DNA of 56,875 nucleotides from Virgibacillus sp. AGTR (lineage in GTDB: Bacteria; Bacillota; Bacilli; Bacillales; Amphibacillaceae), in assembly GCF_016919725.2 (NCBI RefSeq), contig NZ_JAJERH010000022.1:1-56875 (forward strand), given 5' to 3'. Under the pieces are notes generated by a model. It saw only the letters and a program-made list of their open reading frames with translations. It was not told the origin of the DNA and made no database searches. Positions 3,980-52,754 of the stretch are shown here, piece by piece; the stretch's first letter is position 1, and every line of letters starts with the position of its first letter. Position numbers and translations under genes: made by a program.

Positions 3980-4016
3980 GGTGGCACTTCCATTTCTTTT
4001 CTAAATTTCTAAACTT

Positions 4017-6060: not shown

Positions 6061-6071
6061 ACTGTTTCTCA

Positions 6072-6293: not shown

Positions 6294-6421
6294 TGTTTCA
6301 CCTCTTTATTGTTGTATATTAAAATGCTGAGTTAATAAACTTGTTGTAGTGCCTAGTTTGACCTATATCCATAGAAATATGTATGATATGATAGAACAAT
6401 TAAAAGTGAGGAATGATGAAC

Positions 6422-7159: not shown

Positions 7160-7161
7160 TC

Positions 7162-7190
7162 TTGCACACTTTATGTAATTTCTCTATAAT
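7162..7190 (+). promoter_or_regulatory. Promoter of the pheST operon
   Basis: TTGCAC and TATAAT are separated by 17 bases. The transcript would start near 7197, just before the T-box leader. Confidence 0.65.
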
Positions 7191-7200
7191 ATAAATACAA

Positions 7201-7465
7201 TAATATGAAAAGCGTTGAAGGAGCCAGATTTCTATTGCAATATACGATATAAGGGAGAAATGCCAATAGACTGAAAGCATTTTATCGTATAAATAGTTAT
7301 CTATTCACTCTGGAGCAGATACTTGGACCTTGTAAAGCAAGTAAAGGTATTCCGGGAATATCCGTTATCATGATTGAGTTGAGCACATTCTGAAAATGCT
7401 TGTGTTAACTAGGGTGGTACCGCGAAATAAAGCCTCGTCCCTTGTTGGGATGGGGTTTTTTATAT
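7201..7465 (+). promoter_or_regulatory. T-box leader (phenylalanine) controlling pheST
   Basis: The conserved T-box sequence AGGGTGGTACCGCG lies at 7411-7424. A GC-rich terminator hairpin (GCCTCGTCCC...GGGATGGGG and a T run) follows at 7432-7462. A probable specifier codon TTC (Phe) is at 7304-7306, on the 3' side of a stem formed by CCAGA (near 7224) and TCTGG (near 7308), followed by A as is usual. Uncharged tRNA-Phe would stabilise the antiterminator and allow pheST transcription. The specifier assignment is inference; the T-box call is secure. Confidence 0.88.
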
Positions 7466-7532
7466 GGTCATTCCATGGTGGTAAATACGGTTGCTAATCA
7501 AGGTTTAATTATAAAGGAGGCAGGAATAGAAA

Positions 7533-8567
7533 ATGAAAGATCAATTGGCATCAATTGAAAGAGAAGCACTTAATAAGATTGCAGACGCAGAAAGTATGAA
7601 AGAGCTACAAGAGATTAAAGTCGCCTATTTGGGTAAAAAAGGTTCCTTAACCAGTGTACTTCGTGGGATGGGAAAGTTATCAAAGGAAGAACGTCCGGTT
7701 ATTGGCGAATTTGCCAACCGTGTACGGGAAAACATCACAACTTCCTTAGATGAAAAAACAGAAAGTCTAGAGCAAATGGCATTGGAGAAGCAATTAGAAA
7801 AGGAAACGATTGATGTTACACTCCCTGGCCGCCCAATCAAAGTTGGAGGACCACATTTACTCACGAAAATAATTGAGGAGATCGAAGATTTATTCATTGG
7901 AATGGGATTTGAGGTACGTGAGGGACCTGAAGTCGAAACTGATTTTTATAATTTTGAATCCTTAAATTTACCGAAGAATCATCCTGCGAGAGATATGCAA
8001 GATACCTTTTTCATTTCAAAAGAACTGCTAATGCGTACGCAAACGTCACCTGTTCAAGCACGTACAATGCGAGCGTATGGAGGCGATAAGCCTGTGAAGA
8101 TGATATCACCAGGGAAGGTATACCGACGTGATACAGATGATGCCACGCATTCCCATCAATTCACACAAATTGAAGGATTATATATTGATAAGAACGTACG
8201 AATGAGTGACCTAAAAGGTACGTTAGATACATTTGCAAAAAAAATATACGGAAAGGATCGTGAAATTCGATTACGACCAAGCTTTTTCCCGTTTACAGAG
8301 CCGTCTGTAGAAATGGATATCTCTTGTAAGGTTTGTGACGGGAAAGGCTGTTCAGTTTGTAAAGGGTCAGGCTGGATTGAAATTTTAGGTGCTGGTATGG
8401 TTCATCCTAACGTCCTTTCCATGGCGGGGTACGATCCTGATGTTTATAGTGGATTTGCATTTGGCATGGGGCCGGAAAGAATAGCCATGCTTAAATATGG
8501 TGTTAATGATATACGACAGTTCTATACAAACGACATTCGATTTTTAAAACAGTATCATAAAGCATAG
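7533..8567 (+). CDS. pheS: Phenylalanyl-tRNA synthetase alpha subunit
   Basis: This 344-residue class II aminoacyl-tRNA synthetase subunit forms an alpha2-beta2 enzyme with PheT and charges tRNA-Phe. Visible motifs are the N-terminal coiled-coil arm, motif 2 ([21 protein letters not shown]), the Phe-binding region [11 protein letters not shown] and motif 3 ([14 protein letters not shown]). A four-cysteine knuckle ([17 protein letters not shown]) is also present. AAAGGAGG precedes the ATG. pheT follows after 15 bases, and the T-box upstream regulates both. Confidence 0.96.
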
Positions 8568-8582
8568 GGAGGAAGTGAAATC

Positions 8583-11009: not shown

Positions 11010-11130
11010 TAAAAAAATAGGATGGCATATAACGTAAACGCCTATCTTTACAGATGAGAAATAACAGGAAAGAAATAGTATCGGAGGAGGAATACGTAGC
11101 TACAGCACCGTAACAATCGTTTAAAACTAA

Positions 11131-11168
11131 CGAAAGCCGAACGGATTGGAATGACCGTTTGGCTTTCG
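11131..11168. terminator. Bidirectional terminator between pheT and rnhC
   Basis: CGAAAGCCGAACGG pairs with CCGTTTGGCTTTCG across a 10-base loop. It lies between the convergent pheT and rnhC genes and can serve both. The 120 bases between pheT and it hold no convincing gene. Confidence 0.75.
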
Positions 11169-11207
11169 CTTTAACAACATACGTTTAATCAAACCCCGTT
11201 TTTATAC

Positions 11208-12143
11208 TTATAGATAGTTTCTAGCCTTCTTTGTATTAGCGAAATGTGTTTTCGCTAATTTATGTAGGATAGATTCACCGTTAGCATTTATTATTTTAGC
11301 TATTGTTTGATCAACTTTTTTAGAAGCTCCTTTTGGCAATTCAATGCCAACCTGTTCAGAGAGTGAATCCATCTCCTTTAAGAAGCTTGCTCTAGCAATG
11401 ATGGAGCCAGCTGCTACAGGTGTTGAATAACTTTCAGCTTTCGTTAAAAAGTACGTGTTCGAAATTAACGATAAATTTTCTGAACGGATATGCCTTTGAT
11501 ATATCGCCGGTTCACAAAATTGATCAATGACAATTCCCTCTAGTGATACATTCCCAATTTTTTTTACTAAATTACCGATAACATGTTGATGAAGCATGGC
11601 TTTCATTTTTCCTTGTGACCAGCCCTTTTTTTGTAATTGATTATATTTTTCATTATGTAGTATTAATAACGAGTATGGAATTTGTAATTTCATAATTGTG
11701 GATGCTAATTGGCGAATTTTGGCATCGGTTAAAGTCTTGGAGTCTGTAACGCCAATATCTTGTAATTGTTGAATTTGCTGTTTATTTAAATAAACACCGG
11801 CAACTGTTATTGGACCAAAATAATCGCCAGTACCTGCTTCGTCAGTTCCGATATGATTCTTGGCAAATAGGGTTGGATCAGGTGCAAAGCCATGTGCTGA
11901 TGGTTGTCTTTTATGATTTACGCTTTTATAGGATGTTACTGCTTCTGTAACCCATTTTTGCGATGCTTTATCTGGAGCAGCTCCTTGGAACATAACTTTT
12001 CCGGATTTATAGGCTGTAATAACTGCCTCAGGAGTCTTTGCTCTAAACACTGCTCCCTGCGGTGGAGTGGTTAAGAACTTGGCGTAATGTTTTTTCATCT
12101 GGTTAATAGTGTCCTGTGATAGCTTGTAAACCGTCTGAGGCAT
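11208..12143 (-). CDS. rnhC: Ribonuclease HIII
   Basis: RNase HIII cleaves the RNA strand of RNA-DNA hybrids. The 311-residue protein has the N-terminal TBP-like substrate-binding domain of RNase HIII and the catalytic signature GTDEAGTGDYFGPI with the DEAG acidic pair. Later acidic positions appear in DSKTLTDAKI and IVIDQFCEP. The gene is convergent with pheT and divergent from zapA, as in B. subtilis. GGAGA lies upstream of ATG 12143. Confidence 0.93.
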   Translation of the reverse strand: MPQTVYKLSQDTINQMKKHYAKFLTTPPQGAVFRAKTPEAVITAYKSGKVMFQGAAPDKASQKWVTEAVTSYKSVNHKRQPSAHGFAPDPTLFAKNHIGTDEAGTGDYFGPITVAGVYLNKQQIQQLQDIGVTDSKTLTDAKIRQLASTIMKLQIPYSLLILHNEKYNQLQKKGWSQGKMKAMLHQHVIGNLVKKIGNVSLEGIVIDQFCEPAIYQRHIRSENLSLISNTYFLTKAESYSTPVAAGSIIARASFLKEMDSLSEQVGIELPKGASKKVDQTIAKIINANGESILHKLAKTHFANTKKARNYL

Positions 12144-12323
12144 ATAAATCTCTCCAATCTTTTATCTATATAGACTATAGCAAATAAATGTCTGTGAAGA
12201 AATAGCTAGCTTTACATATATTCTTTCATACTACGCCTCATTCGTAGTCGATAGTTTCCTAAACTGCATACTTCATGTTAAGATAAGATGAACAATTTTT
12301 CTTAGTCGGGGGAGGGTAAAAAC

Positions 12324-12587
12324 GTGGCCCAAGATGAAAAAACACGTACAACAGTGGAGATACATAATAAAACATATACTATAATTGGTAATGAACCAAA
12401 GAATCACGTCCAATTAGTAGCGAGCTTAGTCGATCAGAAAATGAAGGAAATCCAAGAATCAAATAGACAACTCGATACGACAAGGTTAGCTGTGCTAACA
12501 GCAGTAAATACGATGAATGATTATTTAAAATTAAAAGCAGATTATGCTTCCCTTATAGGTTCAATAAAAAAGAAAGAGGATAAATAA
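12324..12587 (+). CDS. zapA: Cell division protein ZapA
   Basis: ZapA is a small activator that cross-links FtsZ protofilaments at midcell. The 87-residue protein has the typical N-terminal beta strand segment (TTVEIHNKTYTIIG) and a C-terminal coiled coil. The start is GTG 12324, preceded by GGGGGAGG at proper distance. It is followed after 3 bases by the cvpA-family gene, so the two form an operon as in B. subtilis. Confidence 0.88.
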   Translation: MAQDEKTRTTVEIHNKTYTIIGNEPKNHVQLVASLVDQKMKEIQESNRQLDTTRLAVLTAVNTMNDYLKLKADYASLIGSIKKKEDK

Positions 12588-12590
12588 CTA

Positions 12591-13145
12591 ATGATTGATT
12601 TATTACTATTACTATTATTAATTTTCGGCCTTCTAATCGGGCTGAAAAGGGGATTTATATTACAACTTTTTCATTTAATTAGTTTTATAGCGGCATTTGT
12701 TATAGCCGCATTCTATTATGATGAATTGGGGCCAAAGTTATCACTTTGGATTCCTTATCCTGACCTTGGAGAAGGAGGAGAATGGGCAGCCTTTCTTCAA
12801 GCTCTTCCATTAGAAAAAGGATTTTATAATGCAATAGCATTTGTAATTATCTTTATTGCTGTTAAGATTATCCTGCAAATTATTGCATCAATGTTAGATT
12901 TTGTTGCTTCATTGCCAATCTTACATTCCGTAAATAAACTTTTGGGTGGAATTCTTGGGTTTGTTGAAATCTATTTATTACTTTTTATTTTAATTTATAT
13001 CGCGGCTTTAGTGCCTGTTGTCCAAGTTCAGACTTGGATTAATGACTCATCTATAGCATTATTTATGATTGAACATACACCGTATTTTTCAGAGAAGGTA
13101 AAAGAATTATGGTTTACGCAAATGGCTGAAATGCTTCAAAAATGA
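12591..13145 (+). CDS. CvpA family membrane protein (YshB)
   Basis: This 184-residue protein has four hydrophobic segments, beginning MIDLLLLLLLIFGLLIGLKRGFILQ, the N-terminal signature of the CvpA/colicin V production family. In B. subtilis the ortholog YshB lies at the same place, after zapA. Its function in Firmicutes is not established. It is translationally close-coupled to zapA. Confidence 0.82.
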   Translation: MIDLLLLLLLIFGLLIGLKRGFILQLFHLISFIAAFVIAAFYYDELGPKLSLWIPYPDLGEGGEWAAFLQALPLEKGFYNAIAFVIIFIAVKIILQIIASMLDFVASLPILHSVNKLLGGILGFVEIYLLLFILIYIAALVPVVQVQTWINDSSIALFMIEHTPYFSEKVKELWFTQMAEMLQK

Positions 13146-13153
13146 TCGATAGT

Positions 13154-13232
13154 AGAAAAGACTGGTTCATTTCAACAGGTATATATTGTATGTAATTTAC
13201 AATAATGTTGTAGAGGATCAGTCTTTTTAAGA
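13154..13232 (+). terminator. Long-loop terminator after zapA-cvpA
   Basis: AAAAGACTG near 13155 pairs with CAGTCTTTTT near 13221, with a second inner pairing of TTCAACA and TGTTGTA. The T run supports a terminator before polX. Confidence 0.5.
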
Positions 13233-13257
13233 TAAGAAATGAAATAGGTGATATAGC

Positions 13258-14976
13258 ATGACAATAAATAAAAAAGATGTAATTAAATTAATGGAAAAAA
13301 TCGCTACTTATATGGAGCTGAAAGGCGAAAACCCATTTAAAATAAGTGCATATCGTAAGGCTGCGCAAGCTTTGGAAAGAGATGATCGTTCGTTAGCAGC
13401 TATCGATGATTTCACAAAAATTAAAGGAATTGGTAAAGGTACAGGTTCTGTTATAGAGGAATATATAAAAAGTGGCCATTCGGCTACATTACAGGATCTC
13501 GAAGAAGAGATACCGGCAGGATTAATTCCTTTACTGCAATTACCAGGGCTTGGTGGTAAAAAGCTAGCTAAGCTGTATCAGGAATTAGCTGTTACAGATG
13601 CTAATTCTTTAAAGCAGACAGTTGAAAGTGGTCAAGTTGAACAGTTAGCGGGATTTGGTAAGAAATCTGCGGAAAAAATACTAATTGCTCTTGAGGAGTC
13701 TGGAAAACGCCCAGAACGCTTACCTATTGCATTTATGTTACCAATTGCGGAAAAGATCGAAGCTTATCTAGCTCGAATAGCTGACATAGATAGATATTCT
13801 AGAGCCGGGAGCCTACGAAGAATGAGAACGACGGTTAAAGATCTAGATTTTATTGTGGCAACCGATGCGCAGGAAAAGGTGAGAGATGCTTTATTGGAAA
13901 TGGATACCATTAAAGATACTATCGCTAAAGGAGATACAAAAGTATCTGTCGTTTTAGAAGATGTGTATGATGTCAATGTTGACTTTCGCATCGTAAAAAA
14001 GGAAGAATTTGCATCTACCTTACATCATTTTACTGGCTCTAAAGATCATAATGTAGCGATGCGTCAGCTTGCGAAATCCCGTGGAGAAAAGATTAATGAA
14101 TATGGTATTGAAATAGAAGATACCGGTAAGACGTTAACTTTTAATACAGAAGAGGAATTTTTTAATCACTTTGGTTTAACCTATATCCCACCAGAAATCA
14201 GAGAAAATACTGGTGAAACAGAAGCATTTACAAGCGAATATCCATTGGTTACATTAGATGATATCAATGGTGATCTTCATATGCATACAACTTGGAGTGA
14301 TGGAGCGCAATCATTGGATGAAATGGTTAATCAAGCAAGGAAAAAAGGATATTCCTTTATAGCTATAACGGATCATTCCAAATATCTGAAGGTTGCAAAT
14401 GGTTTAGACGAGCATCGCTTAAGAGAACAGCGAGAGGAAATAGCTAAGCTGAATGAAAAATATGATGATATACATATCTTTTCTGGAGTAGAAATGGATA
14501 TCTTACCTGATGGTCATCTTGATTTTACAAATGATTTTTTACATGAAATGGATTATGTCATAGGCGCTATTCATTCGAGCTTCAATCAAACGGAAGAAAA
14601 AATAATGTACCGACTTGAAAAAGCTCTCGAAAATCCATATGTATCACTAATTGCTCATCCGACAGGAAGACTCATCGGCAAACGTAAGGGATACAATGTG
14701 AATGTAGAAAGACTGATTCGTAAAGCAAAAGAAACGAATACAGCATTAGAGATTAATGCAAATCCTAACCGTCTAGATCTTTCGGATGAATGGGCACGCA
14801 AAGCGCAGGAGGAAGGCGTAACGTTGGCGATCAATACCGATGCACATAACTATCAAATGCTAGAGCATATGAAGTATGGTGTCGGGGTTGCTAGAAAAGG
14901 CTGGATCCAAAAAGAAACAGTAATGAATACATGGTCCAAGGAAGATCTTATAGCGTTTTTTAATCGCAATAAATAG
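13258..14976 (+). CDS. polX: DNA polymerase X family protein (PolX) with PHP domain
   Basis: PolX is a family X polymerase used in base excision repair. The 572-residue protein, equal to the family length, has an N-terminal helix-hairpin-helix region (KIKGIGKGTGSVIEEYIKSG), a nucleotidyltransferase core (residues ~170-315, RRMRTTVKDLDFIVA) and a C-terminal PHP phosphoesterase domain with metal ligands in DLHMHTTWSDG, ITDHSKY, GVEMDI, AIHSS, HPTGR and NTDAH. The PHP domain gives 3'-5' exonuclease activity in characterised homologs. It precedes mutS2. Confidence 0.93.
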   Translation: MTINKKDVIKLMEKIATYMELKGENPFKISAYRKAAQALERDDRSLAAIDDFTKIKGIGKGTGSVIEEYIKSGHSATLQDLEEEIPAGLIPLLQLPGLGGKKLAKLYQELAVTDANSLKQTVESGQVEQLAGFGKKSAEKILIALEESGKRPERLPIAFMLPIAEKIEAYLARIADIDRYSRAGSLRRMRTTVKDLDFIVATDAQEKVRDALLEMDTIKDTIAKGDTKVSVVLEDVYDVNVDFRIVKKEEFASTLHHFTGSKDHNVAMRQLAKSRGEKINEYGIEIEDTGKTLTFNTEEEFFNHFGLTYIPPEIRENTGETEAFTSEYPLVTLDDINGDLHMHTTWSDGAQSLDEMVNQARKKGYSFIAITDHSKYLKVANGLDEHRLREQREEIAKLNEKYDDIHIFSGVEMDILPDGHLDFTNDFLHEMDYVIGAIHSSFNQTEEKIMYRLEKALENPYVSLIAHPTGRLIGKRKGYNVNVERLIRKAKETNTALEINANPNRLDLSDEWARKAQEEGVTLAINTDAHNYQMLEHMKYGVGVARKGWIQKETVMNTWSKEDLIAFFNRNK

Positions 14977-15018
14977 AATTTAACCTATGGAGTAGAGTAT
15001 TTTAAAGGAGAAATAGAG

Positions 15019-17358
15019 ATGAATGAACGCATTTTCCGTACACTTGAATTTCAAAAGATTATTGAACGTTTAACAAGTAAAGCGGAAACAACAGTGGGGA
15101 AAGATTTGTCCCAAAAACTTGAACCATCAACCAATATGGACGAAGTGCTGCAATTACAGAATGAAACCGATGAGGCGATGCATATACAACGCCTAGATAA
15201 AACGATTCCTTTAGGAGGGATCTTTGACATACGCGCTAGTTTAAAACGAAGCGTAATAGGAGGCGTCCTCTCTACCAACGAATGTATGGATGTAGCTAGT
15301 ACAATTTACGGTGGTAGACGTGTCAAAGATTTTATAAGTAAGCTAGAGGAAGCATTCCCTATCCTAAAGGAGCTTGTGGAACATATCAGTCCATTAAGAG
15401 ATCTGGAACGACATATTAAAAGCTGCATCGACGACCATGGACACGTAATGGATAGTGCCTCCCAAAAACTTCGAGGGATTCGCTCATCTATTCGTACGAA
15501 TGAAAGTAGAGTTAGAGAGAAATTAGATAGCTATACAAAAACGAAGAGTAGTATGTTATCAGATGCAATTATTACCATTCGTAACGATCGCTATGTACTT
15601 CCTGTAAAACAAGAATATCGAGGTGCAATTGGTGGAATTGTTCATGATCAATCTGCTTCAGGGCAAACGTTGTTTATGGAACCTAAAGCAGTAGTTGACT
15701 TAAACAATCAGTTGCAGGAAGCAATAATGAACGAAAAACAAGAAATCGATCGTATTTTAAGAGAATTAAGTGCGCATATTGCTAATGAAGAGGCATTTTT
15801 ACAAGAAAATGTTCGTGTGCTTGGGAAAATTGATTTTATGTTTGCTCGAGCGAAACTAGGTCAATCCATGAAAGCTGCGAAGCCAAACATGAATAATAAC
15901 GGCATTATTAAGATGCAACAAGCACGACATCCATTAATTGATATCAACGAAGTTGTTGCAAATGATATAGAAATTGGCGAATCTTATACTTCTATAGTTA
16001 TTACTGGACCGAATACTGGTGGGAAGACAGTCACACTAAAAATGATTGGTCTATGCACGCTAATGGCTCAATCAGGATTACAGATTCCGGCTTTAGATGG
16101 GTGTGAACTTGCGGTTTTTAAGCATGTATTTGCAGATATTGGTGATGAACAATCTATCGAACAGAATTTAAGTACATTTTCTTCACACATGACAAATATA
16201 GTCGATATTTTACAGCACGTTGATGATCAGACACTCGTATTATTTGATGAGCTAGGTGCTGGTACTGACCCTCAAGAAGGAGCAGCGCTTGCTATGGCTA
16301 TTCTAGATGAGGTTATAGCGAGGAATGCTCGTGTCATTGCTACGACACATTATCCCGAATTAAAGGCCTATGGTTATAACCGAGAACACGTCGTTAACGC
16401 TTCTGTGGAGTTTGATGTTCAAACACTACAGCCGACCTATCGTCTATTATTAGGCGTTCCTGGTAGGAGTAATGCATTTGAAATATCTAGAAGAATTGGA
16501 CTTAGTAATCATGTTATCGAGCAGGCCCAAGGGCATGTTGGTGTAGATTCCAAAAGTGTAGAAAATATGATCGCTTCATTGGAAAAATCCCAAATAAATA
16601 CGGAGAAAGATTATGCAAAAGCGCATGAACTATTACAAGAAGCGACAGATTTGCATCATGATTTACAAAGAGCATGGGCGGAATTTGAAGAGAAGCGAGA
16701 AGGTCTATACGAGAGAGCAGAGGAAAAAGCTGATAAAGCTATTAAGCAGGCGCGGGAAGAAGCTGAAATGATTGTAAGTGAGATCAGAAATATGCGGACT
16801 GAAGCAGAATGGAAAGAACATGAATGGATTGAAGCAAGAAAAATGTTAGATTCTGCCAAGCCCAACCTGACTACAAAAGAAAAGCAACAACCAAAAGAGA
16901 AAAAAGGGAAAAAAGAACTTCGTTCCGGTGATGAAATAAAATTGTTAACGATCAACCAAAAAGGGACGGTACTTGAAAAAGTAAATGATAAGGAGTATCT
17001 AGTTCAAGTTGGTATAATGAAAGTGAAGGTTGATCGTAATGATTTGCAATTTATTGGAAAGCAGAATCAAACCATTGAAAAACCGCTAACTACCATAAAG
17101 GGTTCGAATTACCATGTGAAAACGGAATTAGACCTGCGAGGAGAAAGGTTTGAGGATGCATTGTTAAGGCTTGAGAAATATATTGATGACGCACTACTCG
17201 CTGGATATCCAAAGGTCTCGATTATTCATGGAAAAGGTACTGGAGCGCTACGAAAAGGTGTATTGGAATTTGTTAAAAAACATCCAAGAATATCGGATGC
17301 TAGACCTGGCGAAGCTGGGGAAGGCGGTAGCGGTGTTACGATTATTAATCTTAAGTAA
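15019..17358 (+). CDS. mutS2: Endonuclease MutS2
   Basis: MutS2 is a MutS-like ATPase lacking the mismatch-recognition domain. It acts on recombination intermediates and, in B. subtilis, in rescue of collided ribosomes. The 779-residue protein shows Walker A (GPNTGGKT), Walker B ([20 protein letters not shown]), a long coiled coil (about 510-620), a KOW-like segment and a C-terminal Smr nuclease domain ([23 protein letters not shown]). AAAGGAG lies before the ATG. Confidence 0.95.
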
Positions 17359-36209: not shown

Positions 36210-36222
36210 TACATATTTTTAT

Positions 36223-36296
36223 GTCCCAGTAGCTCAGCTGGATAGAGCAACAGCCTTCTAAGCTGTGGGTCGGGAGTTCGAATCTCTCCTGGGACG
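36223..36296 (+). tRNA. tRNA-Arg (anticodon TCT), integration target
   Basis: The acceptor stem GTCCCAG pairs with CTGGGAC; D-arm AGCTCAGCTGGATAGAGC; anticodon TCT at 36257-36259 in loop CTTCTAA; T-arm GGAGTTCGAATCTCTCC. No CCA is encoded. Its 3' half, from the anticodon stem onward, is part of the 55-bp direct repeat that bounds the integrated element, so integration restored the tRNA. Confidence 0.95.
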
Positions 36297-36307
36297 TCTA
36301 ATAGCGG
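36253..36307 (+). repeat. attL, 55-bp core repeat in the tRNA-Arg 3' half
   Basis: The repeat runs from GCCTTCTAAGCTGTGGG through the tRNA end to GTCTAATAGCGG. It is identical at 52700-52754. It covers the anticodon loop, the T arm and the acceptor 3' strand, plus 11 bases beyond the tRNA. Confidence 0.93.
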
Positions 36308-36460
36308 CTAATAGGCGTCATTCGTACGATAGACCAATCGAAGAGTAATCCGATGATATCCTTCGATAAACGGTTTTCTAGTGCGTATTTTGGCGGTATA
36401 GTCGGACATCAACACTTCCGAACGTGTGACAAAATTGTCTACGTAAGGAGGTGTTTTATT

Positions 36461-37507
36461 TTGTCTAAAAAAACGTATATCGCAGAAAGAAGTGGATTTG
36501 CACGACCGACAGCCGATCGTCATGTCCAAAGGCATCCGAATGTCCTACATTCACCAGATATGAAAATTAGCGAAGCACTTGAAGTATTCGTACAAGCTAA
36601 AAGGGCTGAGGGTTGTCGAGAAAGGACAGTCGGAGAATATTATCGGCATATATCGTATATAATTGATTATCTAGGAGAAGACATTCTGTTAGACAATTTA
36701 ACACCAGATATGATAAGAAGTTATATCAGTTATTTATTAAGCGAAAGAAAGGCGTATGAGGGAGATAATAAACGACAAAAGGATAAGAAGGGTCTATCGC
36801 CTAATACCATTAATATCCGCTTGAGAACGCTTAAAACAATGTGTAGATTTTGGTATCAAGAAGGATATATGCTAAATAATCCGATGAGTACCATAAAGTT
36901 AGTTAAATCTAATCATGTTCCGGAAGTACAAGGGTTAACAGATGAACAAGTAAGAAGTGTTTTGAATTATTACGATGAAAGAATGTACTCAGAGTGGAGA
37001 GATAAAACATTAGTATATCTCCTGCTCGATACTGGCTTAAGAATTCAAGAAGCTGTTTCGTTAACGATTGGTCAAATAGAAGTAAGACAAAACTTACTTG
37101 TGATCCCCTCTGAAATTGCAAAGAACCGAAAATACAGAGATGTACCAGTAAGTCGTGAAATTGTAAAACAATTACTGGAATTATACCAAGAGTCTCGTAG
37201 ATATTTTGGGAATATTGACCGCATATTTATGAACTCATACGGAGAGCCTCTCAAAGCTGATACTTTTAGAAGGAGACTAAATCGCTTAAAAAAGAAAATC
37301 GGTATGGACACTTTACATCCACATCAATTTCGACATACTTTTGCTCGTGATTATTTATTAAATGGCGGGGACTTGTTTACATTGCAACGTATTTTAGATC
37401 ATGCCGATATTAAGACAACTAGGAAATATATACAAATGGATACAGAGCATATACAAACACAGCATTTAAAACATTCGCCAGTTCGAAAATATATTCGACG
37501 AAGATAA
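36461..37507 (+). CDS. int: Tyrosine recombinase (integrase) of the element
   Basis: A site-specific recombinase of about 348 residues. The N-terminal half carries a SAM-like core-binding domain (KISEALEVFVQAKRAEGCRE, INIRLRTLKTMCRFWY). The catalytic domain shows the first Arg (DTGLRIQEAVSLT), HQFRHTFARDYLLNGG, the LDHADIKTTRKYIQM segment and the nucleophilic Tyr. The start is TTG 36461, with a perfect AAGGAGG at 36445-36451; a longer frame from ATG 36353 has no binding site. The gene is read in the direction of the tRNAs. Confidence 0.93.
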   Translation: MSKKTYIAERSGFARPTADRHVQRHPNVLHSPDMKISEALEVFVQAKRAEGCRERTVGEYYRHISYIIDYLGEDILLDNLTPDMIRSYISYLLSERKAYEGDNKRQKDKKGLSPNTINIRLRTLKTMCRFWYQEGYMLNNPMSTIKLVKSNHVPEVQGLTDEQVRSVLNYYDERMYSEWRDKTLVYLLLDTGLRIQEAVSLTIGQIEVRQNLLVIPSEIAKNRKYRDVPVSREIVKQLLELYQESRRYFGNIDRIFMNSYGEPLKADTFRRRLNRLKKKIGMDTLHPHQFRHTFARDYLLNGGDLFTLQRILDHADIKTTRKYIQMDTEHIQTQHLKHSPVRKYIRRR

Positions 37508-39487: not shown

Positions 39488-39706
39488 CTATTCTTCGATT
39501 TCTTCAATTACGATAAGTTTATCTATACTTTTCAACTTCAACTCATTTGTGATTTTGTTTAAAACATCTATAGGTAATTGTTTACTCTTGTTATGGTAAA
39601 TATCATGAATTGTGGCTCTGCGAACTTCAATTGCATCAGCAAGCTGAGCTTGTGTATAACCTTTCTCTTTCAATAACTCATCTAATCTTATTCTAATCTT
39701 TTTCAC
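39488..39706 (-). CDS. XRE-family repressor of the element
   Basis: The 72-residue protein is one helix-turn-helix domain (YTQAQLADAIEVRRATIHDIYHNKSKQLP) with a short acidic tail. The start is GTG 39706, preceded by AAGGAGAGG. It faces the early genes across a region with three copies of a TTAC-GTAA operator and two divergent promoters. It is likely to be the Cro/CI-type switch protein that keeps the element quiet and controls its own gene. Confidence 0.85.
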   Translation of the reverse strand: MKKIRIRLDELLKEKGYTQAQLADAIEVRRATIHDIYHNKSKQLPIDVLNKITNELKLKSIDKLIVIEEIEE

Positions 39707-40346: not shown

Positions 40347-40620
40347 ATATTGTAACTATACGGAAATCATGACGAGATACAATCAGTTGCAAGCGGACGA
40401 ACGCAACGAGTTACCCGAAGAACATCCGGAAAAAGAGGCGCTACTTAAAGAAATGAGCGATAACTTAGGCGATATTGTTCAGGCGTATTTCTTCTCTTAC
40501 GTTGAGCCGGGGCAGTTGCCCGGATGGGTTGAGCGCATGTTTGTAAGTACGGATTTTACTAACGACGAGTGGGATATCATAATGGCCGAGGTGACTCAGC
40601 GTGCGAAGGCTACTAAGTAA
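40336..40620 (+). CDS. Small early protein, paralog of the previous gene
   Basis: The 94-residue product has the shared motif Y-x-x-P-x-QLP-x-W-[IV]-E followed by a DF pair about 10 residues later (STDFTNDEWD), as in the gene before. The start overlaps the preceding gene and has GAGGTGAG upstream. Unknown function. Confidence 0.7.
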   Translation: MRNKYCNYTEIMTRYNQLQADERNELPEEHPEKEALLKEMSDNLGDIVQAYFFSYVEPGQLPGWVERMFVSTDFTNDEWDIIMAEVTQRAKATK

Positions 40621-40858
40621 AACGTGGACGGTTAGGTTCGATACTTGGGACGTTTGCCACTTCGTATTATTCGCAATGACATTAGCGTTTATTTATTACG
40701 CACTTATTAGATAGTTTGCGAGCGAATACGGGCTTGCTGACCAGCGGCAACTGGCACAGGTTACCGTATCTCCCTTGCAAGATAGGATCATTAAAAAACC
40801 GACGGCAATCGAGGAAGGCTACTGGGCGCGGCAACGTTCGGTAGCTTTGGCGATTTAA
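40601..40858 (+). pseudogene. Small membrane-protein gene with in-frame amber codon
   Basis: GTG 40601, with GAGGTGA upstream and inside the preceding gene, opens a frame coding a membrane helix (DVCHFVLFAMTLAFIYYALI) that stops at TAG 40712-40714 after 37 residues. The same frame continues open for 47 more codons (FASEYGLADQRQLAQVTVSP...) to TAA 40858. Either a 37-residue peptide is made or an 85-codon gene was broken by an amber mutation. Confidence 0.45.
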
Positions 40859-41156
40859 ATTGTAAGAGGAAAAATTTATTTTTATAGCTTTTAAGTCAGT
40901 CGGGGCAACGGATATGATGGAAATGGTAAAAAATAGGATGTACCTCAAACGGTAACCATTTTGTTATTTAGTAAGTAGGGGCTATTAAATTTTAACAAAT
41001 TTTTATTTTGAGGAAATGTTAAAAAATCCCCGATTTTGAATCAAAAATTGATAATCTTGTAGGGGATTGCGCGAGAATAGCTTGAGAAGGGTATTCAATA
41101 TTGTAGGGTTTTTTACGAGAGAGAACGCCTTAATTTTAAAAAGGAGAGGTTGCGGG
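40859..41156. other. Intergenic region before parB
   Basis: About 300 bases have no supported gene. ATAATTTT-like AT stretches and TTTTTAC boxes near 41010-41120 could hold the parB promoter, but no clear consensus is seen. A frame in phase with parB runs upstream to 41067 but lacks a binding site. Confidence 0.35.
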
Positions 41157-42143
41157 ATGAACGTTACTAAAGTTAAGTTGTCGCAAATTATCGCAAATAA
41201 GGATCAGCCGCGTAAGGATTTTAACCAGGAGTCGATTAAGGAGTTAGCGGAATCAATTGGGAAAGAAGGTTTGTTATCGCCGATTACTGTTAGGAAAGTG
41301 TCACGTGACACTTTCGAAATAGTACAAGGCGAACGCAGGTACAGAGCCGCACAAGTCGCAGGGTTGACCGATATTGACGCAATCATAAGGGAATTGTCGG
41401 ACGAGGACGCTTTTCACCTGGCAGTTATCGAAAATATTCAGCGCGAACAGTTGACGGCAATCGAGGAAGCACGGGCGTTTCAGAAGTACGTCGAACTCGG
41501 ATATAAACACGAACAGATAGCAGAAAAGGTTAGCAAGAGTCGGACGTATGTATCGAGTAGGTTGCGGTTATTGAAGTTGTTACCTGGTATTCAAGATTGG
41601 ATTGCAGAAGGTAAAATATCAGAAGGTCATGCGAAACAGTTACTCGCTGCAAATAACGAGGTTTGTCGGATAATGGAGGTTTGTAGGTTCGTGCACGGTA
41701 CGGAAGACTCATATATCTATTTTCAAAGGTTATTTATGAGTGCTTTTAAGGATATAGAAAAAATCAGCGTAGGTGATGTAAAACATTTTAAGGATAGATT
41801 TAAGTATTTACTTGTTAGAAGTGAATTATATTGGCTTACATTTCAAGCATTACCGGACAGTTTAAAGGACGACGAAAGAATAAGAAAGTTTGCGTTATAT
41901 TCTATATCACTTGTAATAGAACTGGGTAGCGACTTATCGAAATTCACTTATGAAGATGTTAAGGCCATGTTTGAATATGCGATAGAGCACAAAAGCAAAG
42001 ACACTAAATTATGGGAGATCTACAAGGCTATGGAAGAATGGGAGGAATTCATGCGGGAGAATGACTTTAGTTTATTAGATGAAGATGAACTTGTAAAACA
42101 ACTTAAAAGTCGAGATTTATTTACTGAAATGAACATCTATTAA
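41157..42143 (+). CDS. parB: ParB/Spo0J-type DNA-binding CTPase
   Basis: The 328-residue protein has the complete ParB N-terminal domain: the QPRKDFNQESIKELAESI segment, the CTP-binding box GERRYRAA (58-65) and ENIQREQL (92-99), followed by the central helix-turn-helix (YKHEQIAEKVSKSRTYVSSR, about 116-135). The C-terminal part is phage-specific. ATG 41157 has AAAGGAGAGG upstream. There is no parA partner in the element. A perfect parS-like palindrome lies in its own coding sequence and another directly after its stop. Confidence 0.9.
   Translation: MNVTKVKLSQIIANKDQPRKDFNQESIKELAESIGKEGLLSPITVRKVSRDTFEIVQGERRYRAAQVAGLTDIDAIIRELSDEDAFHLAVIENIQREQLTAIEEARAFQKYVELGYKHEQIAEKVSKSRTYVSSRLRLLKLLPGIQDWIAEGKISEGHAKQLLAANNEVCRIMEVCRFVHGTEDSYIYFQRLFMSAFKDIEKISVGDVKHFKDRFKYLLVRSELYWLTFQALPDSLKDDERIRKFALYSISLVIELGSDLSKFTYEDVKAMFEYAIEHKSKDTKLWEIYKAMEEWEEFMRENDFSLLDEDELVKQLKSRDLFTEMNIY
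41294..41315. promoter_or_regulatory. parS-like palindrome inside parB
   Basis: AGTGTCACGTGACACT (41297-41312) is a perfect palindrome which extends to 22 bases at 41294-41315. It shares the TCACGTGA core with the B. subtilis parS site but has different flanks. It falls in the codons for KVSRDTF of ParB. Confidence 0.75.
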
Positions 42144-42159
42144 AGTGTCACGTGATACA
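42144..42159. promoter_or_regulatory. Second parS-like site directly after parB
   Basis: AGTGTCACGTGATACA starts on the base following the parB stop codon. It matches 13 of 16 bases of the internal palindrome, including the whole TCACGTGA core. Confidence 0.72.
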
Positions 42160-42595
42160 AAAGAGGAGACAACAGAAAATCCTGGCACAATTCAAATTAA
42201 AGTGGCGACAATAAAGTTATAACTACTACAGCCGAATTATACGAGTTAGCAATTAAAAGTGCTAAAAATCGTTTAAAACGTTGATATACCGCGGTTTATA
42301 GCGCCTTCCCCTTAAAAGAAGGGTATAAAACGTGCTAAAAGTATTTAGACGGTAATAGCTGACGAACAGAGTGAGGAAAGCAATGTTTTATCAGTAGTAC
42401 CGCGGAATAAACCGAACAAAAAGAACAAAACATTGCGCCTTGAATACAAACCAATTCAAGCCGCGGTCATTATTATTTACCGTATATTTCGGAAGGGGTT
42501 GATTATATGTATTAGTCGAAGGTATTAGGTTTACCCGTAAACAGCGAGATAACCGTCTGTAGTAGTCAAAACGATTATAAAGGGGATGAGGATTT
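42160..42595. other. Non-coding region with short repeats, candidate replication or packaging site
   Basis: Between parB and the helicase-like gene CCGCGG occurs three times (42289, 42400, 42461), two with ACCGCGG and nearby TAAACC/TTTATA. Hairpins lie at 42303-42322 (CCTT...AAGG) and 42439-42460 (CTTGAAT/ATTCAAG). A degraded coding trace (AELYELAIKSAKNRLKR, near 42233-42285) has no start. It could be an origin; this is inference. Confidence 0.4.
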
Positions 42596-43798
42596 ATGGC
42601 GAAAATAAACGTAGTTGATTCGATTATGGGTAGTGGTAAAACATCATGGGCGATCCAACACATGAACGGAGCAAGTGTACTCGAAAAGTTTATCTATATC
42701 ACACCGTACCTAGAGGAAGTGGAAAGAATTCGCAGCAACACGGATCGGACATTTACTGAGCCGAACAATAATAACAAGGACGGTAGTAAAATGCGGAGTC
42801 TTAAGGAATTGATCGCGGACGGCCAGGACATAGTTTCGACGCACTCACTTTTCCAAACGGCAGACGACGAATTGTTGGAGTTACTAACCGATTCCGGATA
42901 TACGTTGATATTGGACGAAGTAATGGACGTTATCGAAAAGGCAAACGTTACCGAACGGGATATTCGCGATTTGAAAGCGTTAGGTCATATCGAAATAGAA
43001 AATAACCGCGTTATATGGAATTGCGTTGACTATGACGTGAACGCCAAGTATGCGGATATTATGAAGTTATCACGCGCAGGCAATCTATTCTATCATCGCG
43101 GCAGGTTCTTAATATGGGCGTTTCCACCGAGGGTATTCGAAACTTTCGTAAACGTGTACGTAATGACATATTTGTTTGATGCGCAGATACAGCGGTATTA
43201 TTTCGATCTATATAAGTTTGAATACGAGTATTATTCCGTCAAACATAACGACGAAAAATACGTAATTACTCAATATGACAAAGAGTCGGAGAATCGCAAA
43301 GCACTGTATAACTTGATGAATGTCTATGAAGGAAAACTGAATGCTATAGGAGATCGAGATAATGCTTTTAGTTCTACCTATTTAAAAAATATGAGCGCAG
43401 GAGTAGAAGAGTCAATCAAAAATAACATTTACAATTACTTTCGAAATGTAGTTAAAGCAAAAGGTAAGGAAATTTTATGGACGACTGTTAAGGATGCTAA
43501 ACCAGGACTTTCCGGAAAAGGTTATGCCCGATCATTCTTGCAGTGTAACGCTCGAGCTACAAACGAATATCAAGACAGAAAGGCATTAGCATATGTATTT
43601 AATCGATATATGAATCCTATAGAGCGAGCCTTTTTTGAAGATAACGGAGTCCAAGTTAATCAAGATTTGTTGGCGGTTAGTGATTTATTGCAATGGGTAT
43701 ATCGTTCTCGTATTAGAAACGAACAACCTGTTGAATTATATTTACCTTCGAGTCGCATGAGACGGGTGCTAAGGCAGTGGTCAGAAAATGAAATATAG
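42596..43798 (+). CDS. Helicase-like P-loop ATPase of phage replication type
   Basis: The 400-residue protein opens with Walker A (DSIMGSGKTSWAI, residues 8-20) and has a DExx Walker B (LILDEVMD, about 104-111). A region near the C-terminus (LLQWVYRSRIRNEQPVELYL) looks like the Arg-finger motif VI of SF2 helicases. It is not a ParA: the deviant Walker motif is missing. AAAGGGGATGAGG precedes the ATG. Its place after parB suggests a role in element replication or DNA remodelling. Confidence 0.75.
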   Translation: MAKINVVDSIMGSGKTSWAIQHMNGASVLEKFIYITPYLEEVERIRSNTDRTFTEPNNNNKDGSKMRSLKELIADGQDIVSTHSLFQTADDELLELLTDSGYTLILDEVMDVIEKANVTERDIRDLKALGHIEIENNRVIWNCVDYDVNAKYADIMKLSRAGNLFYHRGRFLIWAFPPRVFETFVNVYVMTYLFDAQIQRYYFDLYKFEYEYYSVKHNDEKYVITQYDKESENRKALYNLMNVYEGKLNAIGDRDNAFSSTYLKNMSAGVEESIKNNIYNYFRNVVKAKGKEILWTTVKDAKPGLSGKGYARSFLQCNARATNEYQDRKALAYVFNRYMNPIERAFFEDNGVQVNQDLLAVSDLLQWVYRSRIRNEQPVELYLPSSRMRRVLRQWSENEI

Positions 43799-43812
43799 AA
43801 AGGGTGTACTGG

Positions 43813-44655
43813 ATGAAACTAAAAAAACTTAAAGCTCTCCATGCCGTAGAATACAGCAAAGATTTTCCAAAACAAAAAATTACAGGCATAGAACAGTTTG
43901 CCAATGTTTCTGATGTTACCTTAAAACGGGCGCCATTAAACACGTTAGAGGGCGTAGCTAATACGCTAATCTTGAACGCGCAGCACGCCGAGCAGGAACG
44001 AATCAAAGCAAATCCCCCGGTCTATGATCGAGCATATGTGGAACGTGCAGATTACTCGATTATGTCGCTATATTCCGATTATAAGGAAGAGATCGAGGCT
44101 GACCGTGCAGCATGGGCGGATTATCGAGAAGAGCGGAAGAAGTGGCGGAAGTGTGCACATAAGTTTTGTCTTAATATGTATCCGATAGATCGCGCTAACT
44201 TTAAAGGAAAGCGAGCTAAACGTAGTGATAGTCGATTTTGCTGCGAAACTTGTAAGGACGCACATCACGACGCAATAAAACGTTATAAAGAAACTGGTTC
44301 GTATCTTCCGCGGTGGTATTATATACCTGCGTTAGATGATACGGTAGGTGATCGTACACGTAGACGTGAATATGCAACAGAAACGGACTCACTCGAGAAA
44401 GAAATAAATAAGAATCGACCGATCAGACATGCGCCGTTAAAACGAGAAAAGCCGCCTGTATATCCTGTAACGACGTACTATTTATCGGAACTAACAAATG
44501 AAGAAATAAAGGCGAAAAAACTAGAAAAATATGTTGATAAAATGCAATTTATCCGTGGGGAAAATCCCTATAATAGTAGACGGGTTAGGACGCCAGCCGG
44601 CAGCGTCTTAGCCGATAATTTTTGTACAATATGGCATAAAAGGGAGGGAATGTAA
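43813..44655 (+). CDS. Zinc-finger-like phage protein, unknown function
   Basis: This basic protein of about 280 residues has an inner cysteine cluster (CAHKFCLNMYP ... RFCCETCKDAHHDAIKRY, about residues 120-165) of MYM/FCS zinc-finger type, followed by a Lys/Arg-rich tail. ATG 43813 has AAAGGGTG upstream; GTG 43804 is also in frame. It overlaps the next regulator gene by one base. It may bind nucleic acid. Confidence 0.65.
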   Translation: MKLKKLKALHAVEYSKDFPKQKITGIEQFANVSDVTLKRAPLNTLEGVANTLILNAQHAEQERIKANPPVYDRAYVERADYSIMSLYSDYKEEIEADRAAWADYREERKKWRKCAHKFCLNMYPIDRANFKGKRAKRSDSRFCCETCKDAHHDAIKRYKETGSYLPRWYYIPALDDTVGDRTRRREYATETDSLEKEINKNRPIRHAPLKREKPPVYPVTTYYLSELTNEEIKAKKLEKYVDKMQFIRGENPYNSRRVRTPAGSVLADNFCTIWHKREGM

Positions 44656-47172: not shown

Positions 47173-47448
47173 CTGTATAGCTCGGCCGAAACTGAGTTAA
47201 TTGCTAGAGATAAAGCCGGTAATACTACTTATTTATCTAACGTATCTAGAACGCTTAAATTGGACGAGTCTAATCGATATTACACGCTGATTGGCGATGG
47301 CCATACATTAGCGCAAGGTATTTACGTGAATATATTTAAGACATTATCGGAGTTAACTAAGCGAGGATTAAGTTACCCGGACAAGGTTACCGGCGATGGA
47401 TGGTCTATGAGTTATGACGACTACAAAGAAGGGGGTGAGAACGCATGA
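47173..47448 (+). CDS. Conserved-looking small phage protein, start unclear
   Basis: The open frame reads LYSSAETELIARDKAGNTTY, LSNVSRTLKLDESNRYYTLI and on to the end, without gap. It lacks ATG, GTG or TTG near its 5' end; CTG 47173 follows GGTGGTGGAG at a usable distance. ATG 47168 lies in another frame and ends after 10 codons. Either CTG is used, one base was lost, or the first usable start is internal (ATG-less TTG 47260). The sequence as a whole looks like a real protein. Confidence 0.5.
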   Translation: MYSSAETELIARDKAGNTTYLSNVSRTLKLDESNRYYTLIGDGHTLAQGIYVNIFKTLSELTKRGLSYPDKVTGDGWSMSYDDYKEGGENA

Positions 47449-47846
47449 GTAAAAAATTAACTGACAAACAAATCGCAGCAATAGCAATCATATCGCAGCC
47501 TAAAAGGGCTGGAATGACCTACGAACAGATAGCAGATGAAGTAGGGGTAACACCACGCACGTTATATACCTGGCGAAACGAGGAGCGATTTAATAAAGCC
47601 TTAAAAAATAAGATTATGAACGACACAATCGATAGGCTACCGGAAGTAATGGCGTCTGTACCCGATCATATAATCGATCAAGGTAATGCGGCGATGCTTA
47701 GGACGCTATTACAAGCGCACGGGCTACTCACGGAAAAGCACGAAGTAACATCCGCAAATAATGATAGTCGAGATATTGACGAAATGAAAGCGGAATTAGC
47801 GGAATTTAAGAGTCGTCGAGGTGAAAACGTTGAAAAAACAGAATAA
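47445..47846 (+). CDS. Terminase-small-subunit-like HTH protein (phBC6A51 type)
   Basis: The 133-residue protein has an N-terminal helix-turn-helix (MTYEQIADEVGVTPRTLYTWRNEERF, about 22-47) and a helical oligomerisation part. This is the layout of phBC6A51-type phage proteins described as small terminase or transposase-like HTH. It overlaps the previous gene (ATGA) and has GGGGGTGA upstream. The large terminase that should follow is missing, so its packaging role could only work with a helper phage. Confidence 0.7.
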   Translation: MSKKLTDKQIAAIAIISQPKRAGMTYEQIADEVGVTPRTLYTWRNEERFNKALKNKIMNDTIDRLPEVMASVPDHIIDQGNAAMLRTLLQAHGLLTEKHEVTSANNDSRDIDEMKAELAEFKSRRGENVEKTE

Positions 47847-48370: not shown

Positions 48371-50331
48371 TAGCCGGAAAGGTTATATTCGGATTAATAG
48401 CGGTTTTTACTTTAATACCCGCAGCAATCGCAGGCATCGTCGTTGCCGCGAAAAACTTCGACGTAATCAAGGAAAAGGCGCGAGACATGGCGGACGCTAT
48501 AAAGCAGGCGTTCATAAAATTACCGGAAACACTACGGACAGCGGCGAGTAAGATATCGCAATCATTACGCGACATGTTGCCGGAACCAGTCGTCAAGGCG
48601 CTAGATAAGGCTGTGGACAAACTATCGGACATATTCGGAGAGCTTGCAGACGTATTTAACGACATCTTAAACGGAAACTTCGAGAAACTAGGCGATATAT
48701 TTGCGAAGTTAATACCGACCATTGTTGGCGTGTTAGTCGGCGGTTTGCCGGGTCTAGCGATAGCAGGATCGAGGTTCTTGCCCGCATTAGCGGACGGAAT
48801 TACGAAGAACATCGACAAGATATCTGACGCAGCTAACGATATGATCGGAGAATTTATCGACGGGGTAAACAAGTATTTACCGAAAATACTCGAGGCTGGC
48901 GTAGAAATTATCGAAAATGTCCTCGAAGGCGTTGTAACGGCTATACCGAAAATAGTAGAAGTGGCAACGACGATCATAACGTCATTAATCGATACAATAA
49001 CGGAATATTTACCGAAGTTGATCGAATCAGGTGTCGTAATACTAACGAGTCTATTGCAAGGAATTACCGAGAGTTTACCGCTAGTAATTGACGCTGTGCT
49101 ACAGTTAGTGCAGTTTTTAGTCGGAGCAGTTACGGAGTTATTGCCGGTCATTATCAACATAGGTCTGAAGATATTAACAGCAATAATCACCGGCATAGTA
49201 GATAACTTACCAATGATTATCGATACGGCTGTTAAGTTAATGAACACACTAGTTACTTCAATTATGGAGTTACTTCCGATGATACTCGAAGCAGGTATCG
49301 ATATTCTAATGGCGATCGTACAAGGGATCGTCGATAATTTGCCGAAGATAGTTGAGGCGGCTACCCAATTAATTTCGAGACTGATCGATACTGTTATCGA
49401 ATTACTACCGGAAATCATTGACGCAGGTATTAAGTTATTGCTCGCGTTAATCGAAGGAATTATCGACGCATTACCACAATTAATCGAGGCTGCGGTCTAT
49501 TTAATTGTTAAAACAGCGGAAGAGTTGATAAATAACTTACCAAAGATAGTTGAAGCGGGCGTAGAGTTAGTAATAGCGATTATCAAAGGTATCGGAGATC
49601 ATTTGCCGGAATTGCTGAAAGCTGGCGGAGAACTAGTCGTTGAATTAGTGAAAGCGATACTTGAAATGTTACCGGACATTTTCGACGCAGGTGTCGAATT
49701 AGTTGGCGAACTTATTGACGGGGCGTTAAGTATGCTTGAAGAAGTAGGTGCTGCGGCGCTAGAGATTGGCGGTAAATTTCTCGATGGAATCGGTAATTTT
49801 GCCGGAGATATGTGGGACGCCGGTGCCGATCTCGTAAACGGATTAAAAAGCGGTATTGCGGACAAGGCGGACAGTGCGGTTAGAGCTGCGGAGAGCTTAG
49901 GCTCGAAAGTACTAACGGCGACAAAGAACTTCTTCCTCGTTAAATCGCCATCACGCGTATTCCGTAACGAAATCGGGGCGATGCTCGGTAAAGGTTTAGC
50001 GCTAGGTATAAAAGACGAAATATCCAACGTAGAAAGAATGGCGCAACGCCTTTCAGAAGCTGCGACGCCGGAACAACCGAAACTAGCCGGAATAGATATC
50101 GGAGACATGCGCGGACACAGCCGTCAAGTTACCTCAAAATTACAAGCGGAAATGGGCGGAGCTAACAAACGAGGGGACACGTATGTAACGAATGATTACC
50201 GAGGCATGTTAGATGGCGCGGTATTTAACATACGTGAGGAAGCGGACATAGACCGGATTACGGAAGACATTGCGCGAAAGCAAGCGAAAACAAATACGCA
50301 GAAAGGGAGGGTGACGAAATCATGGGCGTAA
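48322..50331 (+). pseudogene. Tail tape-measure protein, 5'-truncated
   Basis: The frame is open from 48322 but has no start before ATG 48487. Upstream residues already look genuine (a hydrophobic stretch VIFGLIAVFTLIPAAIAGIV typical of tape-measure proteins). From 48850 to 49720 follow about eight tandem repeats of ~39 residues of the type LPKIVEAGVELVIAIIKGI, then the conserved C-terminal VKSPSRVFRNEIGAMLGKGL. Tape measures set the tail length of siphophages and are normally 1000 or more residues; about 614 (from 48487) remain here. Head and tail genes expected upstream are absent. Confidence 0.75.
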
Positions 50332-52699: not shown

Positions 52700-52754
52700 G
52701 CCTTCTAAGCTGTGGGTCGGGAGTTCGAATCTCTCCTGGGACGTCTAATAGCGG
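52700..52754 (+). repeat. attR, 55-bp copy of the tRNA-Arg 3' half
   Basis: The sequence is identical to 36253-36307. The bases before it do not complete a tRNA, so this is the displaced copy. Confidence 0.93.

Follow-up and report, generated by a model that had tools for sequence, protein, structure and literature searches.

A clade of orphan ParB proteins in Bacillales mobile elements, with a parS-like palindrome at the end of the parB gene

The parB gene and the element that carries it

The stretch of DNA considered here, which we call the window, comprises 56,875 nucleotides of Virgibacillus sp. AGTR (contig NZ_JAJERH010000022.1, forward strand). It harbours an integrated phage-derived element bounded by two identical direct repeats, in which a parB gene lies beyond a divergent repressor-like gene and upstream of replication-type and packaging genes (Table 1); one further phage-like gene completes what could be recognized. 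The reading frame of parB, with aaggagagg ahead of its ATG start and a TAA stop at 42141-42143, encodes 328 residues. Its product belongs to the ParB/Spo0J superfamily, as both Pfam domains exceed their cut-offs: ParB_N (PF02195) with 107.9 bits for a cut-off of 26.3, and HTH_ParB (PF17762) with 75.4 bits for a cut-off of 22.6. The protein starts right at the ParB_N domain (MNVTKVKLSQI), as do nine other aligned proteins of the clade described below. Beyond the HTH domain, no Pfam match was found in the three clade proteins scanned, and the best match of the C-terminal part of the window protein among PDB sequences reached only E 0.13, this part being alignable, loosely, across ten aligned clade proteins. 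It thus appears to match no known dimerisation domain, which counts against reading the protein as a CTP clamp.

Table 1. Parts of the Virgibacillus element and their positions in the window
Feature	Position	Strand	Remarks
attL, left 55-bp direct repeat	36253..36307	+	identical copy at 52700-52754; overlaps 3' end of tRNA-Arg(tct) 36222-36298
tyrosine integrase	36353..37507	+	PF00589, 125.8 bits; phrog_1 integrase
small HTH protein, repressor-like	39488..39706	-	phrog_3 / phrog_8 transcriptional repressor/regulator, E 4e-9 / 5e-8; transcribed away from parB
parB, orphan ParB	41157..42143	+	ParB_N, HTH_ParB and a C-terminal part without Pfam match
perfect 22-bp palindrome GAAAGTGTCACGTGACACTTTC	41294..41315		inside parB, codons 46-53; contains the exact clade 14-mer GTGTCACGTGACAC
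parS-like site AGTGTCACGTGATACA	42144..42159		gap of 0 after the parB TAA; 14/16 to the clade consensus TGTGTCACGTGACACA; place conserved in the clade
ATPase-like protein, GSGKT motif (by eye)	42596..43798	+	phrog_2467 (unknown function), 251.9 bits; next gene past the 3' site; a role in replication is conjectured from its position
conserved element protein	43804..44655	+	40% over 275 aa to L005; 35% over 164 aa to L078
terminase small subunit	47445..47846	+	phrog_2538, 77 bits
tape-measure-like tail protein	48487..50331	+	phrog_5493, 314.4 bits
attR, right 55-bp direct repeat	52700..52754	+	start-to-start distance from attL 16,447 bp

Elements of similar size are found elsewhere. Two of them, L264 and L265, reside in Rummeliibacillus suwonensis, with start-to-start repeat distances of 16,454 and 15,290 bp, and a third related locus, L005, is found on a 16,464-bp contig. 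L264, which contains the clade locus L076, encodes an integrase matching that of the window together with scaffold, major head, tape-measure, tail and small terminase proteins; it extends from 628 to 17140 between 59-bp repeats placed in the 3' end of an apparent spo0A gene, named by eye. These elements of 15.3-16.5 kb may represent a satellite family in Bacillales. Their sizes recall phage satellites of the PICI type, yet the elements also have tail genes, and L264 has head genes as well; a small terminase was seen both in the window element and in L264, and no match to a large terminase or portal protein appeared among the proteins searched in either (eight in the case of L264). Other members of the clade described below belong to apparently larger prophages; around the parB gene of L077, for instance, the region runs on into genes that look by eye like those of a terminase and a portal. 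Plasmid prophages equipped with other partition systems have been described for the Bacillus cereus group in the part of the literature at hand (PMC8026635).

Two palindromes in the window

The initial annotation had drawn attention to a palindrome within the coding sequence of parB and to a second site at its stop codon. Both stand: the former is perfect over its 22 bp, while the latter follows the TAA codon directly and has one base changed within the 14-mer GTGTCACGTGACAC. The core TCACGTGA by itself is found twice in the window for 0.68 expected, and at least two copies arise in 13 of 100 shuffles; this count is within chance and is not used as support. The 14-mer at up to two mismatches is also seen twice, for 0.08 expected, a number reached in 0/100 shuffles, and composition would predict only about 1e-6 exact copies in the parB coding sequence. 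Throughout the genome of the host (4.7 Mb in 215 contigs), the 16-mer AGTGTCACGTGACACT at up to two mismatches is represented by the two sites of the window and by two copies on contig C166, both without the CACGTG core, so that copies with this core occur nowhere outside the two window sites. The chromosomal segregation genes of the host, soj, spo0J and noc, are all on contig C90 together with one perfect parS of the host type, TGTTTCACGTGAAACA, from which the sites of the element differ, as had been proposed.

The two sites do not have the same standing. The initial annotation had named the absence of the palindrome from this position in homologous parB genes as a refuting outcome, and for the internal copy this is what was observed: among the 14 loci scanned (all the clade loci described below apart from L062 and L222-L225), only the window has it there. 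It falls in a loop whose sequence changes from one relative to another, reading KVSRDT in the window protein and P-x-G/D plus two residues in most of the nine other aligned proteins. We can therefore understand the internal palindrome as an extra site of the window lineage, the conserved site being that at the end of the gene.

A separate clade of ParB proteins

Related loci were gathered by scans with the window protein, by a scan with the site pattern and by a profile built from ten clade proteins. They make up 19 distinct loci in Bacillales genomes and viral contigs: the window, L005-L009 (L009 sitting inside L084), L062, L076-L083 and L222-L225, the latter from four further Paenibacillus genomes. 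Rummeliibacillus, Rossellomorea, Siminovitchia, Paenibacillus and Gordonibacillus are the named hosts. The pattern of the site, used by itself, selected 62 viral stretches with the 14-mer and retrieved in this way a new member of the clade, L062. In a quick tree of 82 rows, which took 19 of 75 other ParB proteins and from which L008 and L009 were dropped for their broken frames (as they were from the residue tallies), the 17 clade rows form one branch with an SH-aLRT value of 100, separate from 29 Bacillales ParB and 17 Noc proteins, the deeper placement of this branch being weak (74). Over the ParB_N and HTH domains, mean identity amounts to 70% within the clade, a figure inflated by eight near-identical Paenibacillus rows, to 42% with ParB and to 38% with Noc.

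A search of 158 further genomes from the family to which the host belongs gave no member at E<=1e-45. In 398 genomes across the class, the matches at E<=1e-43 besides the window were confined to one other genus, in 8 genomes; four of these were aligned and keep N178, a residue that the clade has replaced (see below), and they are not members of the clade. No phage record had a match covering at least 80% of the query, one record of a plasmid collection did so with 30% identity, and a scan of viral contigs with the L077 protein found nothing. ParB proteins of other phages (L010, L165, L167-L173) are without the clade motif in the stretches examined; a faecal phage record, L261, has an ordinary parS, and L262 and L263 have neither. 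One of these contigs, L171, shows three copies of AGTGGGTACCCACT around its own ParB gene (6781-8959), perhaps a site of its own, while L044 encodes a different ParB (10743-11789; 38% identity over residues 12-168) about 2.5 kb from an exact 14-mer at 8351.

Six of the 19 clade genes (L006, L008, L009, L082, L083 and L225) are apparently interrupted by changes of frame or premature stops, with the 3' site remaining in each case, which means either that the module is not always kept or that some assemblies err.

The missing ParA

A standard ParABS system combines a ParA gene, a ParB protein with a ParA-binding motif and a cognate parS. Comparison indicates that the last of these has a counterpart close to parB, and both the ParA gene and the ParA-binding motif are absent. 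A tblastn search with the Soj protein of the host gave no ParA-like match within the window, and none beside parB at any of the 14 clade loci tested (the same set as for the site scan), apart from one chance match at E 0.95, while the same test recovered ParA at 66 of 71 other ParB loci. The proposal of a ParB without ParA on a phage-derived element is thereby borne out. The LG-K/R-G motif that binds ParA is missing from the window protein, though present in the Spo0J of the host (MAKGLGKGI), and this makes the suggested hijacking of host ParA less likely.

Nucleotide-binding motifs and DNA contacts

The motifs facing the phosphates of the nucleotide, GERRxR and ENxQR, are preserved: G58, E59, R60, R61, E92, N93 and R96 are found in 17/17 clade rows and Q95 in 16, with H in its place in the remaining one. 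Boxes II and III are thus intact, while Box I differs from that of canonical ParB at one or two positions, with a variable loop, GLLSP in the window protein and GLQEP in other members. GLQEP is listed among CTP binders in the part of a recent survey at hand, which also states that the nucleotide of ParB-type proteins is not predictable from sequence (PMC12704722). Because Box I departs from the canonical form, the nucleotide of the clade could be other than CTP. Q98 was considered as a mark of the clade and dropped, as other ParB proteins largely share it, partly because the search pattern IENIQREQ selects Q.

The residues in contact with DNA are numbered here after Caulobacter ParB and are presumably placed correctly through the GKSR motif. 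The contacts with parS that are conserved in ParB and Noc are Q162, G170, K171, S172, N178 and R204, and the switch between the two families involves R173/G201 in ParB and Q173/R201 in Noc, according to the available part of the study concerned (PMC7383237), with which the host Noc agrees in showing Q173, R201, K179 and K184. All 17 clade rows have the ParB-like R173 and G201, the Q173/R201 pair with which Noc reads NBS being absent, and K or R at position 179. The clade differs at two of the conserved contacts. Position 178 is S or T in 16/17 rows (I in L225, whose gene match breaks in two), for N in 75/75 other ParB and 29/29 Bacillales ParB proteins, and R204 has become K in 17/17 rows, a change found in 3/75 of the others. 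The replacement of Q162 by H (H118) was discarded as a clade mark, being shared by 43/75 other ParB proteins.

The site at the end of parB

A site is present at the 3' end of parB in 19/19 clade loci, the end of broken genes being judged from the last homologous piece, and 18 of these sites match TGTGTCACGTGACACA at 14/16 or better. The exception is L005, with 12/16, where one half and the core are spoiled; L009 reaches 14/16 with a changed core. Among nine intact genes measured, eight have a site beginning 0-5 bp past the stop codon; it overlaps the stop in L078, and in L062 it is within the last codons of parB. Aligned with TGTTTCACGTGAAACA, the consensus TGTGTCACGTGACACA reads as the bacterial parS with one base altered per half: position 4 of the 16-mer changes from T to G and position 13 from A to C, each of these changes being kept in 13/14 tallied sites. 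None of the 14 clade loci contains a 15/16 match to parS, and among 71 other ParB loci only 9 reach 14/16 to the clade motif, in every case owing to a true parS.

The site accompanies the gene across genomes, which agrees with the idea of the initial annotation that this ParB is specific to the element and has a parS-like site of its own. In 8 genomes hosting the clade, the 14-mer at no more than one mismatch is found at 17 sites, for 0 with a reversed control; 12 of them belong to ParB elements, 4 precede a methyltransferase gene on other contigs and 1 is elsewhere. Among 75 Paenibacillus genomes, all 7 with a clade ParB have the exact 14-mer, in at least two copies each, and 8 of the 68 without it have a single copy (control 0/75); the association has a Fisher p of 3.2e-6, kinship ignored. 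Four of these eight lone sites are upstream of a methyltransferase gene and four have neither gene within 1.5 kb. Of the 62 viral stretches retrieved through the 14-mer, 46 have neither gene in the part examined and are unexplained or due to chance, and one more, L044, has the different ParB noted above. In a single metagenome sample, IMG/VR 3300038315, several contigs (L023, L029, L068, L069, L070) lack any ParB match although GTGTCACGTGACAC occurs in them as many as five times.

A cassette and a second site in Paenibacillus

The linkage of gene and site may be followed in related Paenibacillus prophages. L240, without parB, and L244, with it, match on both flanks at about 89-93%, and the unmatched block of L244 (9363-10578, about 1.2 kb) consists of parB (9411-10556) and the site (10560-10573), with little else. 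The gene is therefore gained or lost jointly with its site. In L244 (9333-10608) and in L243 the block is flanked by a perfect 30-bp direct repeat, GCGCCTGTTAACACGGGCGCTTGGGTGACA, of which L240 has a single copy, so that the cassette was perhaps gained or lost by recombination between the repeats; no comparable repeat flanking the window parB was noticed by eye. The upstream half of L239-L244 is a variable region with genes resembling restriction-modification systems and other large genes, which by eye has the look of a hotspot for defence cargo.

A second copy of the motif is located in Paenibacillus prophages about 225-330 bp upstream of a gene for a protein combining ParB_N with an N6/N4-methyltransferase, and 151 bp upstream in L007; L239-L244, L006, L007, L046 and L073 are among the elements with both such a gene and a nearby palindrome of the clade type. 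When the methyltransferase genes were sought for themselves, irrespective of the site, 20 were found in the 75 Paenibacillus genomes, 15 with a 16/16 site, 2 with 15/16 and 3 with none. The second site is intact (16/16) in 7/7 elements with a clade parB and in 8/13 without; its decay in the absence of parB (5/13 versus 0/7, p 0.083) is not significant. No clade ParB was found in nine viral records with a site near the methyltransferase gene, many of which are fragments; the one ParB match of G617 (5e-6) lies inside the methyltransferase frame. As the second site is perfect in eight elements lacking parB, the motif may have another reader there; it may also serve a ParB coming from another element, or be a relic. 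This second site is the main loose end in our reading of the clade.

Proposed role and competing explanations

We regard it as probable, with substantial room for doubt, that the clade represents a ParA-less CTP clamp with a private parS, moving as a cassette, and a third, mobile lineage that is neither chromosomal ParB nor Noc. The existence of the clade and of its site, their linkage, the lack of ParA nearby and the altered contact residues emerge from sequence comparison, and we infer from them what the protein may do. It would recognise the private palindrome TGTGTCACGTGACACA, and its gene would travel jointly with this site, the two forming a parB-parS cassette without ParA. With CTP opening and closing it, as the conserved Boxes II and III suggest, ParB would load at the site that ends its own gene and, in the window, at the second copy inside parB as well. 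Once closed, the clamp would slide over the adjoining early region, which has the repressor on one side and the genes for replication and packaging on the other; gene order suggests that this would happen after induction. In doing so, it may mark and organise the DNA of the element in cis while the latter is excised and replicating, with no motor to help it. The evidence does not discriminate between silencing, packaging, replication control and recruitment of SMC; partition driven by a motor would be the least likely role.

A rather unlikely possibility, though the foremost of the alternatives, is that the protein is a regulator in the manner of KorB or VirB, which would load, slide to nearby promoters and repress or de-repress the replication and packaging operons, the site in front of the methyltransferase operon being a control point. 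KorB of plasmid RK2 is a relative of ParB, itself a CTP switch, that regulates transcription; it has a ParA partner, IncC, and many operators. It is related in sequence to the clade and belongs to the same fold family (1.3e-23 to profile A1), differing in that the clade has one or two sites and no ParA. The location of parB beyond a divergent repressor-like gene would suit such a role, which is also kept open by the second site, as in most cases examined this precedes the start of the methyltransferase gene by no more than about 225-330 bp. The conserved 3' site is less accommodating: in L076, L077, L078 and L081 the next reading frame begins 35-51 bases past the parB stop, hardly leaving room for a promoter, so that the conserved site would be a loading site inside an operon rather than an operator. 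Furthermore, a consensus scan of the plus strand of the window from 40600 to 42800 yielded no promoter-like match, and the second site persists in the eight elements mentioned above without the protein that would read it.

It is improbable, more so than regulation, that ParB at its site borrows the machinery of the host, recruiting SMC or ParA to segregate or condense the excised circle. The host does possess Soj and Spo0J, and staphylococci and streptococci segregate by ParB-parS without ParA, a mechanism likewise proposed for ParB-only phages in the part of the source at hand (PMC10286716). Against this, the window protein lacks the ParA-binding motif that the host Spo0J displays, and the elements integrate, hence have no obvious need for stable inheritance as plasmids.

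The palindrome might also be the target of another protein, a methyltransferase, recombinase or terminase, and adjoin parB only through common descent. Sites near methyltransferase genes without parB, and flanking modules that differ between elements, could be explained in this way. We give this idea little credence: parB and the 3' site are the most shared part of the elements, other genes being weakly matched or in few of them among the matches listed; the window element, L264, L265, L166 and L266 have no match to the ParB_N-methyltransferase; and the motif departs from parS by a single symmetric change, with contact residues of ParB changed too. As for an ordinary, degenerate ParB next to a chance palindrome, the chance count of the TCACGTGA core and the uniqueness of the internal copy could be invoked in its favour, yet the shuffles of the 14-mer, the 3' site in every clade locus and the linkage across genomes led us to reject chance, and almost nothing is left of this explanation.

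Relation to known systems and significance

The ParA-less clamp with a private site that we favour resembles several described systems without coinciding with any of them. Like Noc with NBS, it would be a paralogue of ParB without its own ParA and with a diverged palindrome, and TIGR04285, the Noc family, is its best NCBIfam match. Yet the window protein scores 190.2 bits for a cut-off of 315, and it has nothing like the N-terminal stretch of the host Noc, MVKPFNRFFGIG; the clade keeps R173 and G201 where Noc has Q and R, going by the part of the study at hand (PMC7383237), alters another base of the site than NBS does, and lies outside the Noc branch. Membership of the Noc lineage, or of that of the host ParB, was therefore rejected on score, residues and tree. 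With Spo0J/ParB and parS it shares the ParB_N and HTH domains, Boxes II and III and a palindrome centred on CACGTG; it departs from them in having no ParA nearby, T to G in each half-site, N178 replaced by S or T and R204 by K, and, in the window protein, no ParA-binding motif and a C-terminal part without Pfam match. The orphan ParB proteins of prophages have likewise the ParB-CTPase fold, no ParA and a mobile setting; their cognate sites are not named in the available part of the report (PMC12704722), and the clade adds the site and its linkage to the gene. Staphylococcal phages of the Lacachita type, temperate and with parB and no parA, are similar in this respect, no site being described in the part of the paper at hand (PMC10286716). 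Two relatives of the Lacachita protein carry the annotation methyltransferase or methylase, and it may therefore be of the ParB_N-methyltransferase kind and not of the clade.

In the literature searched, which comprised neither preprints nor most subscription papers, we found no report of the clade or of its site: the 14-mer was absent and the 12-mer TGTCACGTGACA appeared only in two unrelated papers. The view that no such system had been described thus holds for the clade and its site, and has to be tempered by the prophage orphan ParB proteins already in print, as far as the accessible part of that report goes (PMC12704722).

These orphan proteins are known as sequences, and their function is hard to test without their sites. 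The clade brings such a site, a change of one base per half with respect to parS, and matching changes in residues that touch DNA (N178 and R204). In a wider perspective, which we advance tentatively and believe somewhat less than we doubt it, this would be a third natural specificity of ParB besides parS and NBS, embodied in a self-contained, horizontally moving cassette devoid of ParA, and acting as a CTP clamp in cis on the early and packaging regions of temperate phages of Bacillales and of satellite-like elements of about 16 kb. ParB being the best-known CTP switch, the clade offers a clean test of how its specificity evolved and of what use a clamp may be to a phage without ParA, while the private site could double as an orthogonal label for DNA.
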